A DNA stretch of 33,685 nt from Gemmatimonadales bacterium (GTDB lineage: Bacteria; Gemmatimonadota; Gemmatimonadetes; Gemmatimonadales; GWC2-71-9), in NCBI GenBank assembly GCA_013140635.1, contig JABFSM010000242.1:1-33685 (forward strand), written 5' to 3'. The notes beneath the pieces are model-generated. The model searched no databases. It worked only from the letters and a program-made list of their open reading frames with translations, and was not told the DNA's origin. The position numbers were made by a program, and so were the translations under genes. This document shows positions 4,733-32,903 of the stretch, one piece after another; the first letter of the stretch is position 1, and every line of letters begins with the position of its first letter.

Positions 4733-5022
4733 ATGGACCCGTATGGATCACGGCGTTCGGGTGGCGCGGCTTAGGACGTCTACGCTCATGCGGAACGATC
4801 TCCCCCGCGCGCGACATCCTTGAAGCCAGCCGGGTACCGACCTCGTAACACCGAGAAGACCGAAAAACACACCTGCCGGGGCGCCGGCCCAGGCCGATCA
4901 TTACGCTCTTGCGACTATGCCTAGGATGACGTCCGAGCCGGCGCGGACACACACACCGCCCCGCGCACCCGCGAACGAGTATCTTTCGTCCGGTTCCTTC
5001 CTCCAACACAAGGATGCTCGGC

Positions 5023-5946
5023 ATGGGCAGGCTCATTTTGGGCGCGGTCATTTTGCTGGTGGCCTTGGTGGTGAAGACCGCCGGCGGGAGTCTCAAGAAC
5101 TCGGGCAGCAAGGCCGCGGCGACACTGGCCAACCTCGTCAGTATCGGGCTACTGGTGCTGGCGGTGATCACCCTGATGGGGTCGACGGTGGTGGTGATCG
5201 ATGCCGGATCGGTCGGCGTCCAGCATGCCTTCGGCAAAGTGTCGAACAAGCCGCTCCTTCCCGGAGTGCGGGTCGTGCCGCCCTGGTCACAAATCGAGCG
5301 GTATTCCACCCGGGAAGAGCAGTTCCCGCCCCAGCAGGCCGAAGCGGAGATCATGCAGGCGCTCTCCAGCGAACAGATGTCGATGAAGGTCGATGTTGCC
5401 GTGCGGTGGCAGATCGATCCGCAGGAAGCGCCGAAGATCTTCACGGAAATCGGCGGGGAGGAACAGATTCATTCGGTCGTGCTCAACGCCATCCGAAACG
5501 GCGCCCGGGATGGCATGGCGCAGTTTTCCATCAACGACATCTCGAACCGGAGCAAGATCGCCGACGTGATGCACGCGGAGGTCGACAGCGCTCTGGTCAC
5601 TCAGCCCCGCGCCGGCGGACAGCCGTTCCGGATCGCCACGGTCACCGCGTTCTTTCTCCGCAATCTGGAGCCGCCGGAGCAGGTCGTGAACGCGATCAAC
5701 AATAAGATCGCGCAGGAACAGCAGATTCAGACCGAGAAGCACCGGGTGGAAGTCGCGCGGCTGCAATCGGAGCAGCAGAAGCTGCTCAACATTACGCTGA
5801 CGCCGGAAGCGCTGATGAAGCAGTATCTCGAGGTGCTGCACGACATGAAGTCGAGCAACAATCTGGTGGTGCTGGTGCCGACGGAGGGAGGAACGCCGCT
5901 GCTGGACTTGGCCGCGCTCCGGCGGAACCTGCGGCCGCCGCAGTAG
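5023..5946 (+). CDS. SPFH/prohibitin-like (Band 7) membrane protein
   Basis: This encodes 307 residues from the ATG at 5023, chosen over the in-frame ATG at 5014 because AAGG at 5010-5013 sits nine bases before it but directly abuts 5014. There are two hydrophobic segments near the N-terminus (about 3-19 and 37-56). A prohibitin-homology domain follows ('VVIDAGSVGVQHAFGKV', 'PLLPGVRVVPPW'), with 'VDVAVRWQID' and 'IRNGARDGMAQF' in its core. A Glu/Gln-rich helix runs about 215-255, and the end contains 'YLEVLHDMKSSNN'. SPFH proteins form large rings or caged platforms in the membrane and often modulate membrane proteases such as FtsH. The stop codon is followed immediately by the palindromic repeat at 5947. 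Confidence 0.85.
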   Translation: MGRLILGAVILLVALVVKTAGGSLKNSGSKAAATLANLVSIGLLVLAVITLMGSTVVVIDAGSVGVQHAFGKVSNKPLLPGVRVVPPWSQIERYSTREEQFPPQQAEAEIMQALSSEQMSMKVDVAVRWQIDPQEAPKIFTEIGGEEQIHSVVLNAIRNGARDGMAQFSINDISNRSKIADVMHAEVDSALVTQPRAGGQPFRIATVTAFFLRNLEPPEQVVNAINNKIAQEQQIQTEKHRVEVARLQSEQQKLLNITLTPEALMKQYLEVLHDMKSSNNLVVLVPTEGGTPLLDLAALRRNLRPPQ

Positions 5947-6476: not shown

Positions 6477-7436
6477 CTATCCCTCTCTCCGCGCGGCATC
6501 AACCGCCGTCGACGTTGCGCTCGCCGCCGTGGCGGCGAGCCGTTTCTTGAAGCCGAAGAGCGATTCCAGGAGGTCGTGCCAGAAAGGGGCGCCCAGACTC
6601 ACGAGCACGATCGATAGCAGAATCCCGAGCCACCACCGCCCCTCCCGCAGATTCTCCACGCGGAACCGGCCCAGAAGATCTTCGCTATACACCTTCCGGA
6701 TCTGCTGCAAATCCTCCTTCGACAGCGTGCGGCCCTGCCGAGTGGAATCGGCGGTGGTCGTGGTATCGACCGCGGTGACTTGAGCGCTATCGGCTCGGGC
6801 ACTGTCGGGTTGAATGCTATCGGCCGCCGGTCGCGCCGGTTCGGCCGCGACGTATGCCGAATCGAGCCGGCCGACGAGCGCCAGGGCATCGGCCCGAAAC
6901 TCCGGACTGCTTTGGGCCAAGGCGTAGATCCGGATCGCGTCGAGGTTGAACGGCACCACGACGAGCGCGCTCGCGAGCAGCGAGAGCACCCGCATCCGCC
7001 GGCGGTAGCGCTTCTCCACCGGCTGGACGGCGATCGGATACCAGTCTCTTGCCTGCTTCGCGATGGCCTTGAGGATCTCCCGCGCATCCTCGCGATTCCC
7101 GGGGAGTCCGGGAATGTCGGCCGGCTCGACTTTGGCGATCAAATCCTCGAGCTGAGCCGCCGGCAGCGCGTCGAGGCGAATCTTCCCCGGGCGGAGGCCG
7201 AACTGGCCCAGCGCCCCGACCCGGCGCAGCACTTGACCGATGATGGCGTCGGCATCGATCGTCCACTGGCGGTTGGCCTTGGTGGCCTCGCGGACCAGCC
7301 CCTCGACGGCCCGGAGCATCGTGCGCCCCTTGATCACGAACATCGTCTTGAGCACCTCTTGCACGCTCTGGGCGGCGAGCGCGAAGACCAGCATCGTTCC
7401 CACGAACGCCAGCAGCGTTTCGAGCAATGTCGTCAT
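6477..7436 (-). CDS. Membrane protein translationally coupled to the double patatin
   Basis: This encodes 319 residues from the ATG at 7436, whose first bases overlap the patatin stop (ATGA). GGGGGAG lies just upstream. The frame extends upstream to 7481 but that part lies inside the patatin gene. Hydrophobic segments are at about 4-22, 149-170 and 268-286. Between the last two is a low-complexity Asp/Ser/Ala/Thr stretch (about 197-235), probably a flexible extramembrane linker. The N-terminal 'AAQSVQEVLKTMF...GRTM' and the C-terminal 'VSLGAPFWHDLLESLFGFKKRL' resemble a family of bacterial membrane proteins of unknown function that share an LGAPFWFDLL motif (my recollection). Function is unknown. 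The 4-base overlap implies production with the patatin protein and a possible physical complex. Confidence 0.7.
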   Translation of the reverse strand: MTTLLETLLAFVGTMLVFALAAQSVQEVLKTMFVIKGRTMLRAVEGLVREATKANRQWTIDADAIIGQVLRRVGALGQFGLRPGKIRLDALPAAQLEDLIAKVEPADIPGLPGNREDAREILKAIAKQARDWYPIAVQPVEKRYRRRMRVLSLLASALVVVPFNLDAIRIYALAQSSPEFRADALALVGRLDSAYVAAEPARPAADSIQPDSARADSAQVTAVDTTTTADSTRQGRTLSKEDLQQIRKVYSEDLLGRFRVENLREGRWWLGILLSIVLVSLGAPFWHDLLESLFGFKKRLAATAASATSTAVDAARREG

Positions 7437-10400
7437 GATTCTCCCCCAGTCCTGGCTCGATGCGTCGCCTCTCGGCCGCATGCGCGATAGATCCCGTCCA
7501 GCTCGGTTACCGTGGCGGGTGGAAGCCCCGGCGCCGGGAGCGCCTCGAGGCTCTTCCTGCTAAAGGGACAAGGGCGGTCGGCTCGGAACCAGCAGGTTCC
7601 CGGCCCTCCTCCGGGCCCGGGCACAAGGGCGCCGTCCTTCCGCTCCACCGATTGCGGGATCGCGTCGAGCAGCACTCCCCACGGCCCAAGCCACGGCTCC
7701 CGCTCCGGGTCGCGCTGCAGATCGGAAAAGACCGCAAGCGTAGTGGCACAGCCGTGCGCGATGCTCTCCGCTTGAGTGCTGCGCCGGAAGCCGAGCATCG
7801 GATGAAAGGCGAAGGTGCTGACGAGCCACTGCGGCTTCACCGTCACCACTTCGAGATCGATCGGTGTGAACTCAGCGCCAGGCTCCCGCTCCGCGCGTAT
7901 CTGACGAAGCGCCTGCTGCGTCTGGCCGTACAACTCCACCTTCTTGTTGTAGCGGAGTTGGCCCGTTCGCTGCATCAACGCTACCCAATCGCGACGAAAG
8001 GGCTCGACCCCGTCGATCGTGGTGTGGCGCCGCACCACAGGCTCGAGTGAGGCGCTGAACAGCAGGTGGGGCACCTTGAGATTGCCCCGGGTCGGGTGCG
8101 GGTGGATGAGCCCCGCCGCGGCAGCGTTCCGCAGGAAGTGCGCAACGCCGTCCAAGGGAAGGTTGTCCATCACGCCGCCGTCGATGTACTGGTGCTTGGC
8201 GTTGCTCCCCGGCATCACTTCCCACGCCCATCGCGGCCGGAAGACCGCGGGGAACGCGCTACTCGCGAGCAACCCATCGAGCAGGACCGGCCGCGGCCCA
8301 TCCGACATGAACTGCTGCTCGCCCAGCATTTCCAAACGTCCCATGCTCAGGTTGGTCGTCGTGGCCAGGAAGTAGATCCCCTGTTTCAGGAAGCGGTCGA
8401 ACGGTTCGGCGCGCAGATCGACCGGCGCCGCTTCCCCCGGCAGCGCCTGCAGCACATGCTCCGCCACCAGGAGGGAGAGCGGCTCGGAACCGAGAACCTC
8501 GCGGCCGACTCCCATCCGTTCGAGCCACTCCTGGACGTAGTCCTTCAGTTGCCTGGAGATCTGGTTCGTATCGCCAAGCCGGAGCGCCCGCACCAGGCCG
8601 TGCAGCTCGAACGGGCTGAGCCAGAAGAGCCGCTCGAGGCCGGCGATGACCCGGCGCGCCTCACGATTGTGCCGGCCCGGCGCCGCTTGGTCGTATCGGC
8701 GGAAGAACCGGTCCGCCTCGGACAGCGAGAAGCGGGTCGCACCGGCCCGAAGCGTAAGGCCGCGGACGAAATCGGCGAACCGGTCGGTCAGGATCAGCCG
8801 GTCGAGCGCCAGATAGGTCGCGGCAAGCCGCGCGATCCGGAGCTGCCGCTCCGCTCCGCTATGGGAGAGGGCCTGCGCAATCATCGCGCTCGTGATCGAA
8901 CCGACCGATGCACCCGCCACGACATCGGGTCGAAGGCCGAGCTCGCTCAGGGCATTGAGGGTTCCGAGCTGGTACACCCCGCGAAAGACGCCGCCGCTGA
9001 AGAGGAGGCTGACGGTCGGCCGCGCTTTCCCTTCGTGGCCCTCGCGAGTCCTCGGCCACCGCGGCTGCTGGTCGGTCCCGCGATCGAGCGCCACCCGGTA
9101 GTTGGCCAACGACTTCTCGGTGCGCGCCGCGTAAGCGGAGGGTTGCCGCTGAAAGTGGTCGTCCTGCAACAACGGCTCCGGCTCGGCGTCGCGGTGCGGC
9201 CAAGCGGGCCCGACCTTTGCCCATTTTCGGAAATGCAGGCGGTGGTAGGTCAGGGGGCTGGCGCCGGCACCCTGCCCCTTTTCTCGCAGCCGGCAATGCC
9301 TGCAGACCTCCGGCAACCCCGAAGCCTGCTCCCCGGTCGGCGGGGGATTCTCCCGGTCGAAGTCGGCGAGCAGGGGCAGCGGCGCCTTGACGCTTCGCTG
9401 CAAGTGATTGGTTACCACTTGGCGGCACGGGAGAGTCTGCTCGTTCTGCGGGTCCGCTACGCTCGGCGGCTGGCTGGCGCGGGTCATGACCTGAAGCGCC
9501 GCGCGACATCCCTCGGCCACCGCTTCCGCGATCACCTCTCGCTTGGCCTCTTTCGTCCGAGCCTCGAAGAGCCGCTGGTGGAGTTCGAGCGGCTGATCCG
9601 GCTCCACCGGCGTTACCCAGGCTCGGAGAAACGAGTTCCCGCCGTACGACTGCGCCGCGCGGCCCGGCGGCATCGTGCGCGTATAGAGCTCCGTCAGCCG
9701 ACGCTCGAGGGAGGCATCCCGAAACCGCTGCAGGAGGAGCGCGCGCCGGGCCACGTCCACCAAGTTGAGGAACACCGGGGCGTCGGTCCCGTTCTCCTCC
9801 CGGAGGGTTGGGGAGCTGAAGGGGAGCGGACTCACGCTATAGATATGGATGACGGGTGCGTCGGGGTGGGTCCTGCCCCGCAGCAGCGCCAGCGCACCCG
9901 AGGTCGGCTCGCTGGTGATGTTCCCCCCGTCGACGAAAAGCCGGCCGGTCGCTTCCGCTGGGGGAAGGAGCGGCGCCACCGCCACCGACGCGTAGAGCCC
10001 GTCCACCACGCTCACTCCCGGGTCGACGATCTCCAGCTCGCCGGTTCCCACGTTGGCGACGATCAGCCCCACCTCGATCTGCTCCCGTTTTCCGGGCGCA
10101 GCGTACTCGCCGATCACCTTTCGCGTCGGACTCGTCTCCGACGGCTGGTCCTCGCTCCTGAGGGAACGTTCGACCACATCGTCCATGTTGCGCGGACCGT
10201 AGTACTCGGGGTCAAAGAGCCGGACGAACAGGTCGCGGATCGGATGTTTGCTGAGGAGCGCGTCGGTCAGGTCGAACTGCTCGAGGAACCGGCGCCGGTA
10301 GTCGCCGCCGACTTGCCAGAAGCGCACCGCAATCACCAGGGCCGCGCCGAAGCCCGCCAGCGGCACGATCCACCACCCTCGCCAGATCGCCTCGACCATC

Positions 10401-11521
10401 AGCCGGCCCGCCTCGGCCAATGCGAAGCCGGAGAGCGCGAAGGAAACAACCCAGAGAAGCGCCAATGGAATGCCGAGGTAAAGAACCGCGAGCCCGACCA
10501 GCTCGAACGACTCCAGCGCCAACTCTCCGACCAACCGCAGCCGAGGATTTCGTTCGGTCAACGTCAGCTGGCGCCAGACCCCGGCCCGCTCGAAGCGATA
10601 GATCCCGATCGCAAGAAGGGCCGCGAGCCCCGCCGCCACCGCGATTTGCTGCTCCTGCGGCCGCCCGGCAATCCACCCGCCGAACGCCCAGGCGCCGACG
10701 ATCGGAAGGGCCGTAATGGAGAGCCAAAGCGCGGTGAGGGTGAGGAAGGTCGAGAAATACCCGACGGCGATCCGAACGCTCCGGAACCAGCGCCTCGCGA
10801 AGAGAACCCCGGCGGCGGTGGAGCCGCGGGCGCTTCCGCCGGCCCGAAAGAGGGGCCGCCACACCGTCTCCAGCATCAACTCCGCAATTCGGTGCAGGTT
10901 GAGCCCGATCAGGCTCCACGACCGGACCAGCTCGAAGAGGTAGATCGCGATTCGCGCGCCCCGCGACCGAATCTGCCCCGCCGCCTGGAGGCCGAGTATC
11001 CGGCGAACGAACCGGGTCAGGGTGGCGAAGGAGAACCGGGTCCGCAGCATGAAATTGAAGAACCGAATGAACCCCTGGCGCGCCTTGAGCTCGCTCTGCC
11101 GGCCGAGCCGCTCGCGGTGGTTGTGGATCGGCAGGCGGAGCGGCTCGAGGGACCGTCCCGCGTCCACCTGGAGCGTGTCGGGGAAATAGGCCGCCGCAAG
11201 CTCCGTCGGGGCGTTGGCGTATGCCTCGAAGATCTCGCGGAAGCGGGCCACCTTGGCTCGCCGGGTCTCTTCCGGCGTGGCGGCCGATCCGTTGGGGGCC
11301 TCGCGCTGGAGGATCTCCGCCAGGGCCACCGCGTTGATCGCGCCGGCGGAAATGCCGACCACGGCATCGGGCGCTTTGCCTTGAATGACCAGGAGGGCGT
11401 GGATGACGCCCAGGTCCATGGCGGTGTCGAAGCCGCCGCTCGAAAAGGCGATCGTGCGAATCGGCTGGCCGGCCGAGCCGATCGGCCTGGTCCTGGGCGC
11501 TGTTCCCTCGGGTTGGTCCAT
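7433..11521 (-). CDS. Double patatin-like phospholipase with a membrane domain inside the first patatin domain
   Basis: This encodes 1362 residues; the ATG at 11521 follows a GAGG-containing stretch. Patatin domain 1 has its nucleophile elbow GISAG at 56-60 (Ser58) and its DGG at 531-533 (Asp531). Between them lie roughly four hydrophobic segments (about 250-277, 292-308, 338-366, 381-402), so the membrane part sits within the domain. Its N-terminal loop reads SSGGFDTAMDLG (27-38), lacking the usual basic residue. Patatin domain 2 begins near 835 with FSGGVFRG (841-848), has GASVG at 870-874 (Ser872) and DGG at 1114-1116, and looks fully canonical. A linker holds a CRHC pair (740-743). Patatins are Ser-Asp dyad lipid acyl hydrolases. 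It is coupled to the membrane gene at 7436. Activity and substrate are inferred from family only. Confidence 0.85.
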   Translation of the reverse strand: MDQPEGTAPRTRPIGSAGQPIRTIAFSSGGFDTAMDLGVIHALLVIQGKAPDAVVGISAGAINAVALAEILQREAPNGSAATPEETRRAKVARFREIFEAYANAPTELAAAYFPDTLQVDAGRSLEPLRLPIHNHRERLGRQSELKARQGFIRFFNFMLRTRFSFATLTRFVRRILGLQAAGQIRSRGARIAIYLFELVRSWSLIGLNLHRIAELMLETVWRPLFRAGGSARGSTAAGVLFARRWFRSVRIAVGYFSTFLTLTALWLSITALPIVGAWAFGGWIAGRPQEQQIAVAAGLAALLAIGIYRFERAGVWRQLTLTERNPRLRLVGELALESFELVGLAVLYLGIPLALLWVVSFALSGFALAEAGRLMVEAIWRGWWIVPLAGFGAALVIAVRFWQVGGDYRRRFLEQFDLTDALLSKHPIRDLFVRLFDPEYYGPRNMDDVVERSLRSEDQPSETSPTRKVIGEYAAPGKREQIEVGLIVANVGTGELEIVDPGVSVVDGLYASVAVAPLLPPAEATGRLFVDGGNITSEPTSGALALLRGRTHPDAPVIHIYSVSPLPFSSPTLREENGTDAPVFLNLVDVARRALLLQRFRDASLERRLTELYTRTMPPGRAAQSYGGNSFLRAWVTPVEPDQPLELHQRLFEARTKEAKREVIAEAVAEGCRAALQVMTRASQPPSVADPQNEQTLPCRQVVTNHLQRSVKAPLPLLADFDRENPPPTGEQASGLPEVCRHCRLREKGQGAGASPLTYHRLHFRKWAKVGPAWPHRDAEPEPLLQDDHFQRQPSAYAARTEKSLANYRVALDRGTDQQPRWPRTREGHEGKARPTVSLLFSGGVFRGVYQLGTLNALSELGLRPDVVAGASVGSITSAMIAQALSHSGAERQLRIARLAATYLALDRLILTDRFADFVRGLTLRAGATRFSLSEADRFFRRYDQAAPGRHNREARRVIAGLERLFWLSPFELHGLVRALRLGDTNQISRQLKDYVQEWLERMGVGREVLGSEPLSLLVAEHVLQALPGEAAPVDLRAEPFDRFLKQGIYFLATTTNLSMGRLEMLGEQQFMSDGPRPVLLDGLLASSAFPAVFRPRWAWEVMPGSNAKHQYIDGGVMDNLPLDGVAHFLRNAAAAGLIHPHPTRGNLKVPHLLFSASLEPVVRRHTTIDGVEPFRRDWVALMQRTGQLRYNKKVELYGQTQQALRQIRAEREPGAEFTPIDLEVVTVKPQWLVSTFAFHPMLGFRRSTQAESIAHGCATTLAVFSDLQRDPEREPWLGPWGVLLDAIPQSVERKDGALVPGPGGGPGTCWFRADRPCPFSRKSLEALPAPGLPPATVTELDGIYRACGREATHRARTGGES

Positions 11522-27826: not shown

Positions 27827-30800
27827 TCATGGCGCCCCGGCGGGCACCAACTCCAGCTCGAGTACCTCCCGAATCTTCCGACCCAGTGAGTCGGCGGTAA
27901 ACGGTTTGTGCAGGAAGGCAATGCCGGGCTTCAGAACCCCGTGCTGCACGATGGCCTCCTCGGTGTAGCCCGACATGTATATGACCCGGAGCCCGGGCCG
28001 CTTCTCGATTAGGCGCCGGGTCAGCTCCGGCCCACTGGCGCCCGGCATGACAACGTCAGTGAGCAGCACGTCGATCGTCTCGGTGGCCTCGAACATCTGT
28101 ATCGCATCATCGGCGTTGGAGGCGACCAGGACCGTATACCCCTGCCGCTCGAGGAGCCTCCGCACCAAATCGCGCAGCCCTTCGGCGTCCTCCACCACGA
28201 GCACCGTCTGCGTTCCAGTATGGGCCGGGCCCTTCGATGGCGTGGGCGCTTCCACCGCCGGCTCATTTGCCGCGCTCGGAAAGTAGACCTTGAACGAGGT
28301 CCCCCGGTTCAGCTCGCTGTACACGTTGATGCTGCCGCCAATCTGATTGACGATGCCGTGGACGGTGGCCAGCCCTAATCCGGTCCCCCGGCCGACTTCC
28401 TTCGTCGTAAAGAACGGCTCGAACAGCCGGTCCTGGACGGCGGCCGTCATGCCGCTCCCCGTGTCCGTGACCGTCAGCGCGACATAGGCGCCAGGGCGAA
28501 CCGATAGGTGGGTCTTGGGATAGTTCTCGTCCAGTTCGACGTTGGCGGTCTCCAGCGACAGGGTGCCGCCCTTGGGCATGGCGTCACGGGCATTGACCGC
28601 GAGGTTGAGGATGATCTGCTCCACCTGTCCGCGATCGGCCTTCACGGTGGAAAGCCCGGACTGGAGGCCGAGCTCGATCTTCACATCCTCCCCAATCAGG
28701 CGGGTAAGGATCGGGTGCACTCCGGTGACCACCGCATTCAGGTCGAGGAGTGTGGGTTCGACGATCTGCCTCCGGCTGAACGCCAAGAGCTGGCGGGTAA
28801 GTCTGGCGGCGCTCTCGCCGGCCCCCTGAATCTCTTCAATGTCCGCCCGCCGAGGGTCGAGTGGGTCGAGATCGGTAAGCAGCAACTCACAGTAGCCGAG
28901 AATGGCGGTCAACAGATTGTTGAAGTCGTGCGCTACCCCGCCGGCCAGCCGTCCGATCGCCTCCATCTTTTGTGCCTGGTGAAACTGCTCCTCGAGGGCA
29001 CGCCGTCCGGTCACGTCCATGGAAATGCCGATGGCCCGTACCGGCCGGCCCTGCTCATCGAGGCGGACCCGTCCGATACCGTTCAGCCACCGGATCGTGC
29101 CGTCGGGCCACGAGGCCCGGTGGACGACGGAAAAGTCCGAACCGGCCTGGATGGCCGCTTCGACCTCCGCCACCACCGACGTCCGATCGTCGGGATGAAT
29201 GCACGCGATGAACGCCTCGAATGTTCCGGTAAAGCTCTTGGGCGCCAAACCGTACTGCGCCTCGAGGGTTTCGGACCATCGGAGCTTGCCGGAACTGTAA
29301 TCCATGTCCCAAATGCCGACATTGGCGCTTTCCAGCGCAAACCGCATTCGCTCCTCCGCCGTCCGCAGCGCCTCAACCGCTAGGCTGTGCTCGGTGATAT
29401 CGGCGCCCGAACTCAAGACACCGACAATCTGATCACCGTCATTGCGGATCAGGGTGTTGCGCCACTGGAACAGCCGTTCCTCACCCGATCGAGTCAACAC
29501 CGGGTTCTCGACGATGGAGAGGTCTCCGTCGAGGAGTTTCTGAAAGCTCCCCCGCGTCGACTCCCGGATTCGCGCTGGGATGCAGGTCTCCAACCAGTCC
29601 ACGCCGCGGAGTTCTTCCGCGGTCCACCCCAGAACCGAGCAGGCGTAGCGATTGGCCAGCGTGACCTTCCCCCTCAGGTCCAGCGCCACCAGCATGACCT
29701 GGGCCGTGTCGAGGTACCGCTGCGAGCGGTCTCGCTCGATGCGCAGAATCTCTTCGACCCCGTTGCGTTCGAGAATTTCTCCCTCGAGCTCCTCGGCCCG
29801 CTTCTTTGCCAACGCGAAGAAATGGCTACCCTCGTAGATGCGCCCCACTTGCCCGGAGAGCGCCATGACGAGGTCTTCGTCATCTTGGGTAAACGCCCTT
29901 CCCTCATTACCGACGAAACAGATCCAGCCGAATACGAGACCGGGTGATGCAATGGGTGCGGCGAGGAACGACCGTACCTCGGGATGATTGGCGGGCCATT
30001 GGAGTCCGGCGGCATTCTCCCCGGCGTACTCACCGCGAAAGGTGCGCCGTTCGCCGATGACTTGCGCGAAGAACCCGGCGACAGGGTCCCCTGGCTTGAT
30101 CCAGGCATTCGCATCCATTCCGCTGGTGGCGACTCGCACCACCGTCCGGTCGTTGAGGTCGACGATGCCGAGGGTGACGTAGCTGGCGCCGAAGAGATCT
30201 CGGGAGGCCAGGCAGACATTCTCAAGGAGGCGCTCGGGATCCCGCTCGGAGGCCAGTTCCAAGCCGATGTTGATCAGCGCCCGCAGCCGCGCGTTGGCGC
30301 TTCTCAGGTCACCGGATTTCTCGGATAGCCGGTCGGAAAGCAACCCAAGGTACTCGCGATCGGCATCCGCCGTGGGCTGGGATGGCTCAGGCAGTTCCCC
30401 CTGCCCCGATCCTCCCGCGAGCGCCCGCCCAACCACCGCCAGCACCTCCTCGGCCTTGGCCGGCTTCGTCAGGACGTAGGACGCCCCGATGGAATGCGCC
30501 AAGTCTCTCGCGTCGCGCGCGCTATACGTTGCCGTGTAGAGCACCACCGGAGTGCCGCTGGTGGCAGGATCGAGCCGCAATTGCCTGACGAACTCGAAAC
30601 CATCCATCACCGGCATGAGGACATCGGTGATCACCAGATCGGGCCGCTCCGCCTGAGCCGCCGCCAGCCCTTGAGCGCCATCCGCCGCCTCGAGGAGCCT
30701 GTGCCCCTGCTCCCGCAGGAGCGCGCCCAGGAACGCCCGATTGGCGGAGAGATCGTCAACGACCAGAATGGTTGCGATACGATTATGCCGAGAGCTGGTG

Positions 30801-30829
30801 GCTGTGCATGACGAGCCGCCCACCGGCAT
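27827..30829 (-). CDS. Hybrid histidine kinase: receiver-GAF-PAS-PAS-HisKA-HATPase-receiver
   Basis: This encodes about 1000 residues from ATG 30829, but the start is doubtful: it lies inside the preceding gene (47-base overlap) and lacks a ribosome site. The first conserved residues start near 'IATILVVDDLSANR', 17 codons later. Order: receiver 1 (about 18-140, Asp69 in VITDVLMP, Lys122); coiled linker; GAF domain (about 185-335, 'LLENVCLASRDLFGASYVTLG'); PAS 1 (about 370-485); PAS 2 (about 490-612, 'ESANVGIWDMDYSSG', 'IHPDDR'); HisKA with H-box His634 in GGVAHDFNNLL; ATPase N-box 'NLAVNARDAM' (about 742) and 'TDTGSGM', 'GTGLGL'; receiver 2 (about 873-995, Asp925 in LLTDVVMP). Both receivers look competent. 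No transmembrane segment is seen, so it is probably cytoplasmic. Confidence 0.92.
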   Translation of the reverse strand: MPVGGSSCTATSSRHNRIATILVVDDLSANRAFLGALLREQGHRLLEAADGAQGLAAAQAERPDLVITDVLMPVMDGFEFVRQLRLDPATSGTPVVLYTATYSARDARDLAHSIGASYVLTKPAKAEEVLAVVGRALAGGSGQGELPEPSQPTADADREYLGLLSDRLSEKSGDLRSANARLRALINIGLELASERDPERLLENVCLASRDLFGASYVTLGIVDLNDRTVVRVATSGMDANAWIKPGDPVAGFFAQVIGERRTFRGEYAGENAAGLQWPANHPEVRSFLAAPIASPGLVFGWICFVGNEGRAFTQDDEDLVMALSGQVGRIYEGSHFFALAKKRAEELEGEILERNGVEEILRIERDRSQRYLDTAQVMLVALDLRGKVTLANRYACSVLGWTAEELRGVDWLETCIPARIRESTRGSFQKLLDGDLSIVENPVLTRSGEERLFQWRNTLIRNDGDQIVGVLSSGADITEHSLAVEALRTAEERMRFALESANVGIWDMDYSSGKLRWSETLEAQYGLAPKSFTGTFEAFIACIHPDDRTSVVAEVEAAIQAGSDFSVVHRASWPDGTIRWLNGIGRVRLDEQGRPVRAIGISMDVTGRRALEEQFHQAQKMEAIGRLAGGVAHDFNNLLTAILGYCELLLTDLDPLDPRRADIEEIQGAGESAARLTRQLLAFSRRQIVEPTLLDLNAVVTGVHPILTRLIGEDVKIELGLQSGLSTVKADRGQVEQIILNLAVNARDAMPKGGTLSLETANVELDENYPKTHLSVRPGAYVALTVTDTGSGMTAAVQDRLFEPFFTTKEVGRGTGLGLATVHGIVNQIGGSINVYSELNRGTSFKVYFPSAANEPAVEAPTPSKGPAHTGTQTVLVVEDAEGLRDLVRRLLERQGYTVLVASNADDAIQMFEATETIDVLLTDVVMPGASGPELTRRLIEKRPGLRVIYMSGYTEEAIVQHGVLKPGIAFLHKPFTADSLGRKIREVLELELVPAGAP

Positions 30830-32903
30830 CGGTGAGCGGTATCGGAGGCGTAAGGGCACGCCCTTGAGCATAGCCAATGCCTAGCGATTGCAGTTTGCGG
30901 AGGACCCGGTTGCTGCCGACTTGCTTTGCGATAGTGGCTATGCCCATGCTCAGCCCGATCTGGTTGACCGCGCTGACGATGCCGCCATGGATGGGATCGT
31001 CGGCGACCCCGTGGACGAAGTGACCGCCGATCTTCACAAAATCCACCGCCAGGGCCCTGAGGTGGGCAAAGGAGGCCAGGCCGCTCCCAACATCCTCCAA
31101 AGCCACCGCGCAACCGGTGGCCCGGATGCCGGCCAGGAAACGCACGGTTCGAGGAAGGTTGGCGAGCGCGGCGGACTCGGTGATTTCGAAACAGAGACAG
31201 GAGGATGGAAGTCCGTACCTGGCCAATTCGTGCTCCACCAGGGAAAGGAACCCCTCCTCGGCCAGCGCCGAGGCGTTCAAGTTGATCGAGAAGACCGGCA
31301 GTTCGGCGGAGGGGTGATCCCTGTGCCAGCATCCGAGCAACGCGATCGTCTCTCGCACGACCCATCGGTCAATCACCGGCATCAGGCTGTACCGTTCCGC
31401 CTGGGGCAGGAAATCGCCGGCGTCCTGGACCCCCCCTCGACCGTCCGGCAGCCGCAGCAGGACCTCCCAGCGAGAGTGCGTTGTGCCATCGTGCTGCAGC
31501 GGCACGATGGGCTGCACGTACAGCTGGAATTGGCTCTCATCCACGGCCCGAGCCAGCCGGGTGACCCGCCGCGCGACCGACTGCGACACGCCATCCGCGA
31601 CTTTCCCCCGTCGCTCGGAGTGGACCCGGTTGCCTCCCGCTTCTTTGGCGGCATAGCTGGCGGCATCGGCGGCTCGCATGACCACCGCAACCCCGCCATT
31701 GTCCGCGGTCAGTTGAACCAAGCCGATGCTGGCTCCGATCGAGAACGAGGTGCTCCCCCACTCGAAGCGGTATTGCGCGACGGCCACCCGAAGGGACTCG
31801 GCTATGCGCTCCGCCTCGGCCACCGGGCAATTCTCCAAGAGCACCCCGAACTCGTCTCCGCCCAGACGCGCCAGGGTGTCCCGCTTCCGGAGGTGACTCC
31901 CGAGCAGCGGACCGAGACTTCGGAGCAGGTCGTCCCCCGCGTCATGGCCGCAGCTGTCGTTGATGATCTTGAATCGGTCGAGGTCGAGGCATAGCAGTAC
32001 TTGGTCCGAATCGGCGTTGGCCAGGTCTGCCACGACACGAGTCAGCCGGCGTTCGAATTCCCGCCGGTTGATCAGACCGGTCAAGGCATCGTGAGTGGCT
32101 TCGAAGGAAAGCCGGTGGCCGACCCGGCGCTTTTCACTTTCGTCCTGGATGACCAGTACGACGCCGATGATGTCCCCGTTACCGTTGCGGACCGGGGCCG
32201 CCGAATCGCCGACCGGCACCTCGGTTCCATCACGACGGACCAGCACAACACCGTCCTCCAAGTCGATCGGGCGGCCTTCCTCCAGACAACGGGCGGCAGT
32301 GTTCTTGACCGGGCTCCGGTCGTCTTCGGAGACCAGGCGCAGCACCACGTCCAGCGATTCCCCCAGCGCTTCCGCCGCGGCCCAGCCGGTCAAATGCACC
32401 GCGACGGGGTTGAGGTAGGTGATTCGCGAGGTGGTGTCGGTCGCGATGACGGCATCCCCGATGGCCTCCAGCGTTGCTTGCGCCTGCCCGTTAGCCGCCG
32501 ACTCGGCTTCCTGGGCCCGGTGCGACGGGGTCAAGTCGCGGAGGGTAATCAGCGAGAGCGCGCCCTTACCCGGCCCGAGCGGACGCCGCACCACCTCCAC
32601 CGGGAACTCGCTACCGTCGCAGCGCCGGGCAAAACAACGGACCATGCCGTTTCGGGTCGCGACGGGCGGGGAACCGTCGTTCGGATCGGCCCCGGACTGG
32701 AGCAACCGATGGTAGCGGGTCGGAATGAACCGGCTGACCGGCTCTCCGAGGAGTTCCCGTTCGCTCCATCCGAGAAACTGCTGGGCCTCTTGATTGAGCG
32801 CCATCACCCGCCCCTCACGGTCTACCACAACCATTAGATCGGGAGCGGCGTCGAGCAATTCCTGCACTTCCTTGAGCGCGGCCTTCAGGAGGGTCCTAGG
32901 CAT
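30783..32903 (-). CDS. PAS-PAS-GGDEF-EAL protein with degenerate EAL domain
   Basis: This encodes 706 residues from ATG 32903, whose start is uncertain because a promoter-like sequence abuts it. PAS 1 (about 10-130, 'DLMVVVDREGRVMALNQEAQQFLGW'), PAS 2 (about 145-260, 'DAVIATDTTSRITYLNPVAVHLTGW') and GGDEF (about 265-430) follow. The GGDEF motif is intact at 348-352 and the RxxD inhibitory site is Arg339-Asp342, so it should make c-di-GMP. The EAL domain (about 450-700) keeps Glu480 (EVL), Asn541, Glu573, Lys624 and Gln680. But the DD pair reads Glu603-Asp604, KID reads Lys-Ile-Gly (Gly626), and the AEGVE region is AKQVG (Lys660, Gly663). I infer little or no phosphodiesterase activity. Its 3' end overlaps the kinase start region. 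Confidence 0.93.
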   Translation of the reverse strand: MPRTLLKAALKEVQELLDAAPDLMVVVDREGRVMALNQEAQQFLGWSERELLGEPVSRFIPTRYHRLLQSGADPNDGSPPVATRNGMVRCFARRCDGSEFPVEVVRRPLGPGKGALSLITLRDLTPSHRAQEAESAANGQAQATLEAIGDAVIATDTTSRITYLNPVAVHLTGWAAAEALGESLDVVLRLVSEDDRSPVKNTAARCLEEGRPIDLEDGVVLVRRDGTEVPVGDSAAPVRNGNGDIIGVVLVIQDESEKRRVGHRLSFEATHDALTGLINRREFERRLTRVVADLANADSDQVLLCLDLDRFKIINDSCGHDAGDDLLRSLGPLLGSHLRKRDTLARLGGDEFGVLLENCPVAEAERIAESLRVAVAQYRFEWGSTSFSIGASIGLVQLTADNGGVAVVMRAADAASYAAKEAGGNRVHSERRGKVADGVSQSVARRVTRLARAVDESQFQLYVQPIVPLQHDGTTHSRWEVLLRLPDGRGGVQDAGDFLPQAERYSLMPVIDRWVVRETIALLGCWHRDHPSAELPVFSINLNASALAEEGFLSLVEHELARYGLPSSCLCFEITESAALANLPRTVRFLAGIRATGCAVALEDVGSGLASFAHLRALAVDFVKIGGHFVHGVADDPIHGGIVSAVNQIGLSMGIATIAKQVGSNRVLRKLQSLGIGYAQGRALTPPIPLTDAGGRLVMHSHQLSA

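Follow-up and report, generated by a model that had tools for sequence, protein, structure and literature searches.

The 1362-residue product of gene P0001 (7433..11521, minus strand) carries two patatin-type domains in one chain, the first of which appears to be split by predicted transmembrane (TM) helices. Profile searches confirm the pair, an unusual and rare layout for a well-known enzyme family; patatin enzymes usually have one catalytic domain with regulatory parts. The gene belongs to a soil bacterium of the Gemmatimonadales and lies in a window of 33,685 nucleotides, the whole stretch of DNA analysed (JABFSM010000242.1, positions 1 to 33,685). An earlier sequence-only reading had placed two GxSxG elbows and two DGG motifs in the protein, and all four positions are exact: GISAG at 56–60, DGG at 531–533, GASVG at 870–874 and DGG at 1114–1116. 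By themselves the motifs are weak evidence for two patatin domains, as 78 of 20,000 shuffled versions of the protein also contained at least two GxSxG and at least two DGG. Profile searches give strong evidence. The halves were scanned separately against Pfam Patatin (PF01734, gathering cut-off 27.7 bits), as that reading had proposed, and both scored above the cut-off: residues 1–601 alone gave 49.8 bits (E 6.4e-13) and residues 816–1362 alone gave 85.5 bits (E 7.2e-24). The claim of two complete motif sets in one chain thus stands. In the whole-genome profile scan the C-terminal domain is a single full match (profile 1–189) and the N-terminal domain is matched in two pieces (profile 2–106 and 118–186) within the same open frame. 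Patatins employ a Ser–Asp dyad via an acyl-enzyme, with a glycine-rich loop as the oxyanion hole and GXSXG and DGA/G motifs (PMC12871566). In alignments with ordinary patatins, the dyad positions are occupied by Ser-58/Asp-531 and Ser-872/Asp-1114. AlphaFold models of the two halves, built from 3–4 sequences, were of very low confidence (pLDDT 33 and 42), too low to bear on the fold. A fold search with the N-terminal half gave no significant match, with PlpD, CapE, ExoU and CapV among its top rows.

One further carrier, G007 (same family, other genus), was found among 101 relatives, 394 class genomes and 395 phylum genomes, these samples overlapping. A scan of GTDB contigs covering 84,980 genome species gave a single locus, L032 (JABDII010000192.1, Gemmatimonadales MAG DS_bin_5), the sequence of which is that of the G007 contig (4543 bases); there is one homologue altogether. 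The scan relied on two short motifs of the N-terminal half and may therefore miss divergent relatives. The N-terminal half of the homologue is 42–43% identical to ours, and scores 59.4 bits with Patatin by itself; GGFDT, GVSAG and the motif Asp are retained, with DGT in place of DGG. Its contig stops within the linker, and a second G007 contig begins inside the C-terminal tail, which leaves a gap of about 1.3 kb. The N-terminal half and the partner gene described below are kept in the homologue, but the C-terminal domain was not found in its assembly, the gene being cut by contig ends. The second dyad is consequently known from one genome, and the homologue presumably has two patatin domains as well.

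The frame has no stops. Since its third-position G+C is 0.82–0.90 along the entire length and a purine-rich ribosome site lies 5′ of its ATG, we regard it as one real gene. The genome is in 349 contigs and the sole homologue is broken by contig ends, which would be compatible with two neighbouring patatin genes having been joined by an assembly artefact. We consider this very improbable: the frame is unbroken with even third-position G+C across the linker, and in the homologue the N-terminal half continues into the linker, with the alignment reaching residue 789, while the same partner gene comes after the C-terminal tail, as here.

No second open reading frame with two Patatin domains appears among the Patatin matches listed from 121 phylum genomes, which comprise approximately the best 150. 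Scans of IMG/VR turned up single viral patatins but no double one, and plasmids and phages gave only single-domain matches, for example a 264-residue patatin in a Stutzerimonas mercury transposon. A search of open-access papers for two-patatin proteins gave nothing relevant by title or abstract, which is compatible with the earlier remark that no system of this layout has been described. We note separately two adjacent patatin genes in separate frames (365 and 353 residues) at G094:C1:2758842-2760273 (L064).

The N-terminal domain is non-contiguous. Its Ser block (residues 25–74; 11300..11449, minus strand) holds the glycine loop GGFDT and the elbow GISAG with Ser-58; it corresponds to Patatin profile 2–106, is supported by the patatin alignment and is kept in the homologue. 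The Asp block (residues 469–541; 9899..10117, minus strand) holds VDGGN with Asp-531, corresponds to profile 118–186 and matches the Asp blocks of ordinary patatins in BLASTP. About 290 residues with four predicted TM helices intervene. Hydropathy places the helices at 259–277, 292–310, 341–359 and 383–401 (residues 259–401; 10319..10747, minus strand), and the charge distribution is consistent with this assignment; six are predicted by hydropathy in the homologue against four here. The domain is followed by a tail (9293..9634, minus strand) comprising the final patatin strand and helix (EGC) together with the conserved Cys-672, Cys-699, Cys-740 and Cys-743, located by alignments. If the domain is indeed built in this way, a membrane bundle can be accommodated in the middle of the patatin fold.

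Under the positive-inside rule, positively charged flanks of TM segments are cytoplasmic. Five Lys/Arg but not a single Asp/Glu occur in the stretch preceding the first TM helix, and RRR comes after the last; the insert is thus positively charged on either side, and its two ends would be cytoplasmic. No hydrophobic N-terminal signal was found in the double-patatin protein. With an even number of TM helices, no such signal and positive edges, both dyads should face the cytoplasm, an argument from hydropathy and charge. The earlier suggestion that the enzyme might act on both membrane leaflets is not supported by these same features.

The C-terminal patatin domain (residues 839–1125; 8147..9007, minus strand; profile 1–189) contains Ser-872, Asp-1114 and the glycine loop SGGVFRG, which is near-canonical when compared with GGGx(R/K)G. 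Its Ser and Asp are separated by a longer insert, which contains no TM helix. Its tail (7478..7879, minus strand), aligned with the G007 fragment, consists of the final patatin strand and helix (HGC) together with the conserved Cys-1258, Cys-1310, Cys-1318 and Cys-1348. Four cysteines therefore stand behind each patatin domain, and all eight are conserved in the homologue.

The first site deviates from this pattern. Alignment with the ordinary single-domain patatins of the phylum shows a glycine loop of SSGGFDTAM in the N-terminal half against SGGGLKGLAH, an elbow of GISAGAINA against GTSIGALIA, and an Asp block of VVDGLYASVAVAPLLPPAEATGRLFVDGGNITSEP against VADAVFASCALPGIFPPREIGGRTYVDGAVVENLP. 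The loop SSGGFDT keeps the glycines and lacks the basic residue of GGGx(R/K)G, and GGFDT is conserved in the homologue. The missing basic residue suggests another substrate or reduced activity. Comparing GGFDT with GGVFRG, we consider that the first site probably takes a different substrate or acceptor from the second. Given this deviant loop, and given that the homologue has Thr as the third residue of DGG, the N-terminal site may even be inactive. It is conceivable, if rather unlikely, that lipase activity resides in the C-terminal domain alone and that the N-terminal domain is a pseudo-enzyme which anchors or regulates the active half, or presents lipid to it. The loop without its basic residue, present also in L032, the DGT there, the lower Patatin score (49.8 bits, compared with 85.5 for the C-terminal half) and the large membrane insert all fit such a role. 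On the other hand, Ser-58, the elbow glycines and Asp-531 are kept in both homologous proteins while the membrane region diverges strongly, and a pure anchor need not keep these residues.

The two halves are 36% identical over 53 residues. In a tree of the Ser and Asp blocks with 20 patatins of the same phylum they group together with support of 98/97; in a wider tree, in which a few unreliable rows were included, they also group (96/79), and this is not decisive. Placing the C-terminal domain with the long patatin (PlpD-like) clade was rejected (p-AU 0.005). The last patatin helix has GY in ordinary patatins and GC in both halves. The grouping in the trees, the common GC and the four-Cys tails favour duplication, though they do not prove it; internal duplication followed by divergence is the most likely origin of the halves. 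A fusion of two unrelated patatin genes is a real possibility, although we lean against it. The halves are alike only to the extent given above, the C-terminal domain is as near to ordinary patatins (32–37% identity) as to its companion, and both halves sit on long branches, which can join falsely. The same grouping in the narrow and the wide tree, the rejected PlpD-like placement, and the GC and cysteines common to the halves speak against fusion. Of the earlier proposal of internal duplication with specialisation, then, the grouping, the common GC and the deviant N-terminal loop are in support, and the long branches are what leaves a fusion open.

Taken as a whole, the protein is best read as a membrane-anchored, cytoplasm-facing lipid acyl hydrolase whose two sites have diverged, probably after a duplication, and which works with a membrane partner; we judge the chances of this reading to be evenly balanced. 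The membrane helices would keep the first catalytic domain against the inner membrane on its cytoplasmic side, and the second patatin domain would lie next to it in the cytoplasm. Both sites would act on the acyl chains of membrane lipids, for example on a phospholipid and then on the lysophospholipid, by the Ser–Asp acyl-enzyme mechanism of patatins, and the partner would probably stabilise or regulate the enzyme. Sequential deacylation or acyl transfer between the sites may be envisaged, and an enzyme acting on two acyl groups, as the sequence-only reading had also suggested, is possible. A more specific version, with two active and chemically different duplicated sites, held together on the cytoplasmic side of the inner membrane by the helix bundle inserted in the first domain and passing lipid or acyl groups under control of the partner, is tentative and, on balance, doubtful. 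Two diverged sites in one chain could, if real, couple two deacylation (or transfer) steps. With two genomes known, the double patatin is rare and its broad importance is limited for now.

In comparison with patatin-like phospholipases (PF01734, PNPLA), both halves show GxSxG and DGG after a glycine-rich loop, ordered as in patatins, and score above the cut-off, the loop being near-canonical in the C-terminal half and lacking its basic residue in the N-terminal one. Unlike them, the present protein has two domains per chain, and a predicted membrane module interrupts the first, which has GGFDT in place of GGGxK/RG. PlpD is the nearest solved sequence (residues 833–891, E 9.8e-9). PlpD and FplA are type Vd patatin autotransporters with a Ser–Asp phospholipase A1 domain (PMC5724010). 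Our protein differs from them in lacking a hydrophobic N-terminal signal and in having predicted inner-membrane-type helices and not an outer-membrane barrel; no Pfam match to a C-terminal 16-strand β-barrel domain was found in the whole protein. TIGR03607 likewise comprises large bacterial patatin proteins, and a motif-level match was observed at residues 855–888, but the score of 15.8 bits against a cut-off of 262.45 means that the double patatin is not a member. The CBASS patatin effectors (CapV/CapE) share the patatin catalytic motifs, and there is a weak PADLOC match; the two domains and membrane helices set our protein apart, and no recognised cyclase domain occurs among the neighbours of its gene. 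A sporadic distribution, phospholipase-type domains in a two-gene unit and the weak match at motif level (19 bits, E 1.8e-4) to phospholipase effectors in PADLOC might point to an anti-phage or toxin-type effector that damages membranes, with a controlling partner. We think this improbable, as the patatin motif alone would give such a match and the adjoining genes include no recognised cyclase, sensor or other defence gene.

The membrane partner is the product of the downstream gene P0002 (6477..7436, minus strand; 319 residues), for which hydropathy predicts three TM helices. Its ATG overlaps the stop of the double-patatin gene (ATGA). In G007 a gene for a 41% identical partner lies 12 bases past the end of the patatin, and the pair is thus conserved in the sole other carrier genome. 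The remaining surroundings are different. The upstream gene encodes an unknown protein here and an ion-channel-like protein in G007 (L032:41-1366, Pfam Ion_trans 52.6 bits) and is not conserved, and the genes further downstream differ as well. Pfam has no name for the wider family of which the partner is a member; no recognisable patatins lie beside its distant relatives in five other genomes. Two adjacent relatives of P0002 were observed at L042:5992-8868, in a genome of another family.

Other neighbours of the double-patatin gene are topoisomerase, Band 7, response regulator and M48 peptidase genes. The Band 7/SPFH membrane protein gene (5014-5946, plus strand) and the patatin pair are convergently oriented, and a tRNA-Ser(CGA) lies between them; the open reading frame P0004 (4665-5444, minus strand) overlaps the Band 7 gene and was dropped. 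Further along the window, at 27827-32903 (minus strand), two genes overlap at their ends; one encodes a large hybrid histidine kinase with PAS/GAF and two receiver domains, the other a PAS-GGDEF-EAL protein. We also note that ordinary single-domain patatins of the phylum (L018:640-1713, L003, L013, L016, L021, L023, L026, L027) carry a C-terminal ferredoxin-like CxGCxxC...CP. A literature search for a patatin–ferredoxin fusion gave nothing relevant by title. At L018 (640-1713) Fer4_13 (33.4 bits) and Fer4_15 (30.0 bits) both match above the Pfam cut-off, identifying a patatin–ferredoxin fusion.
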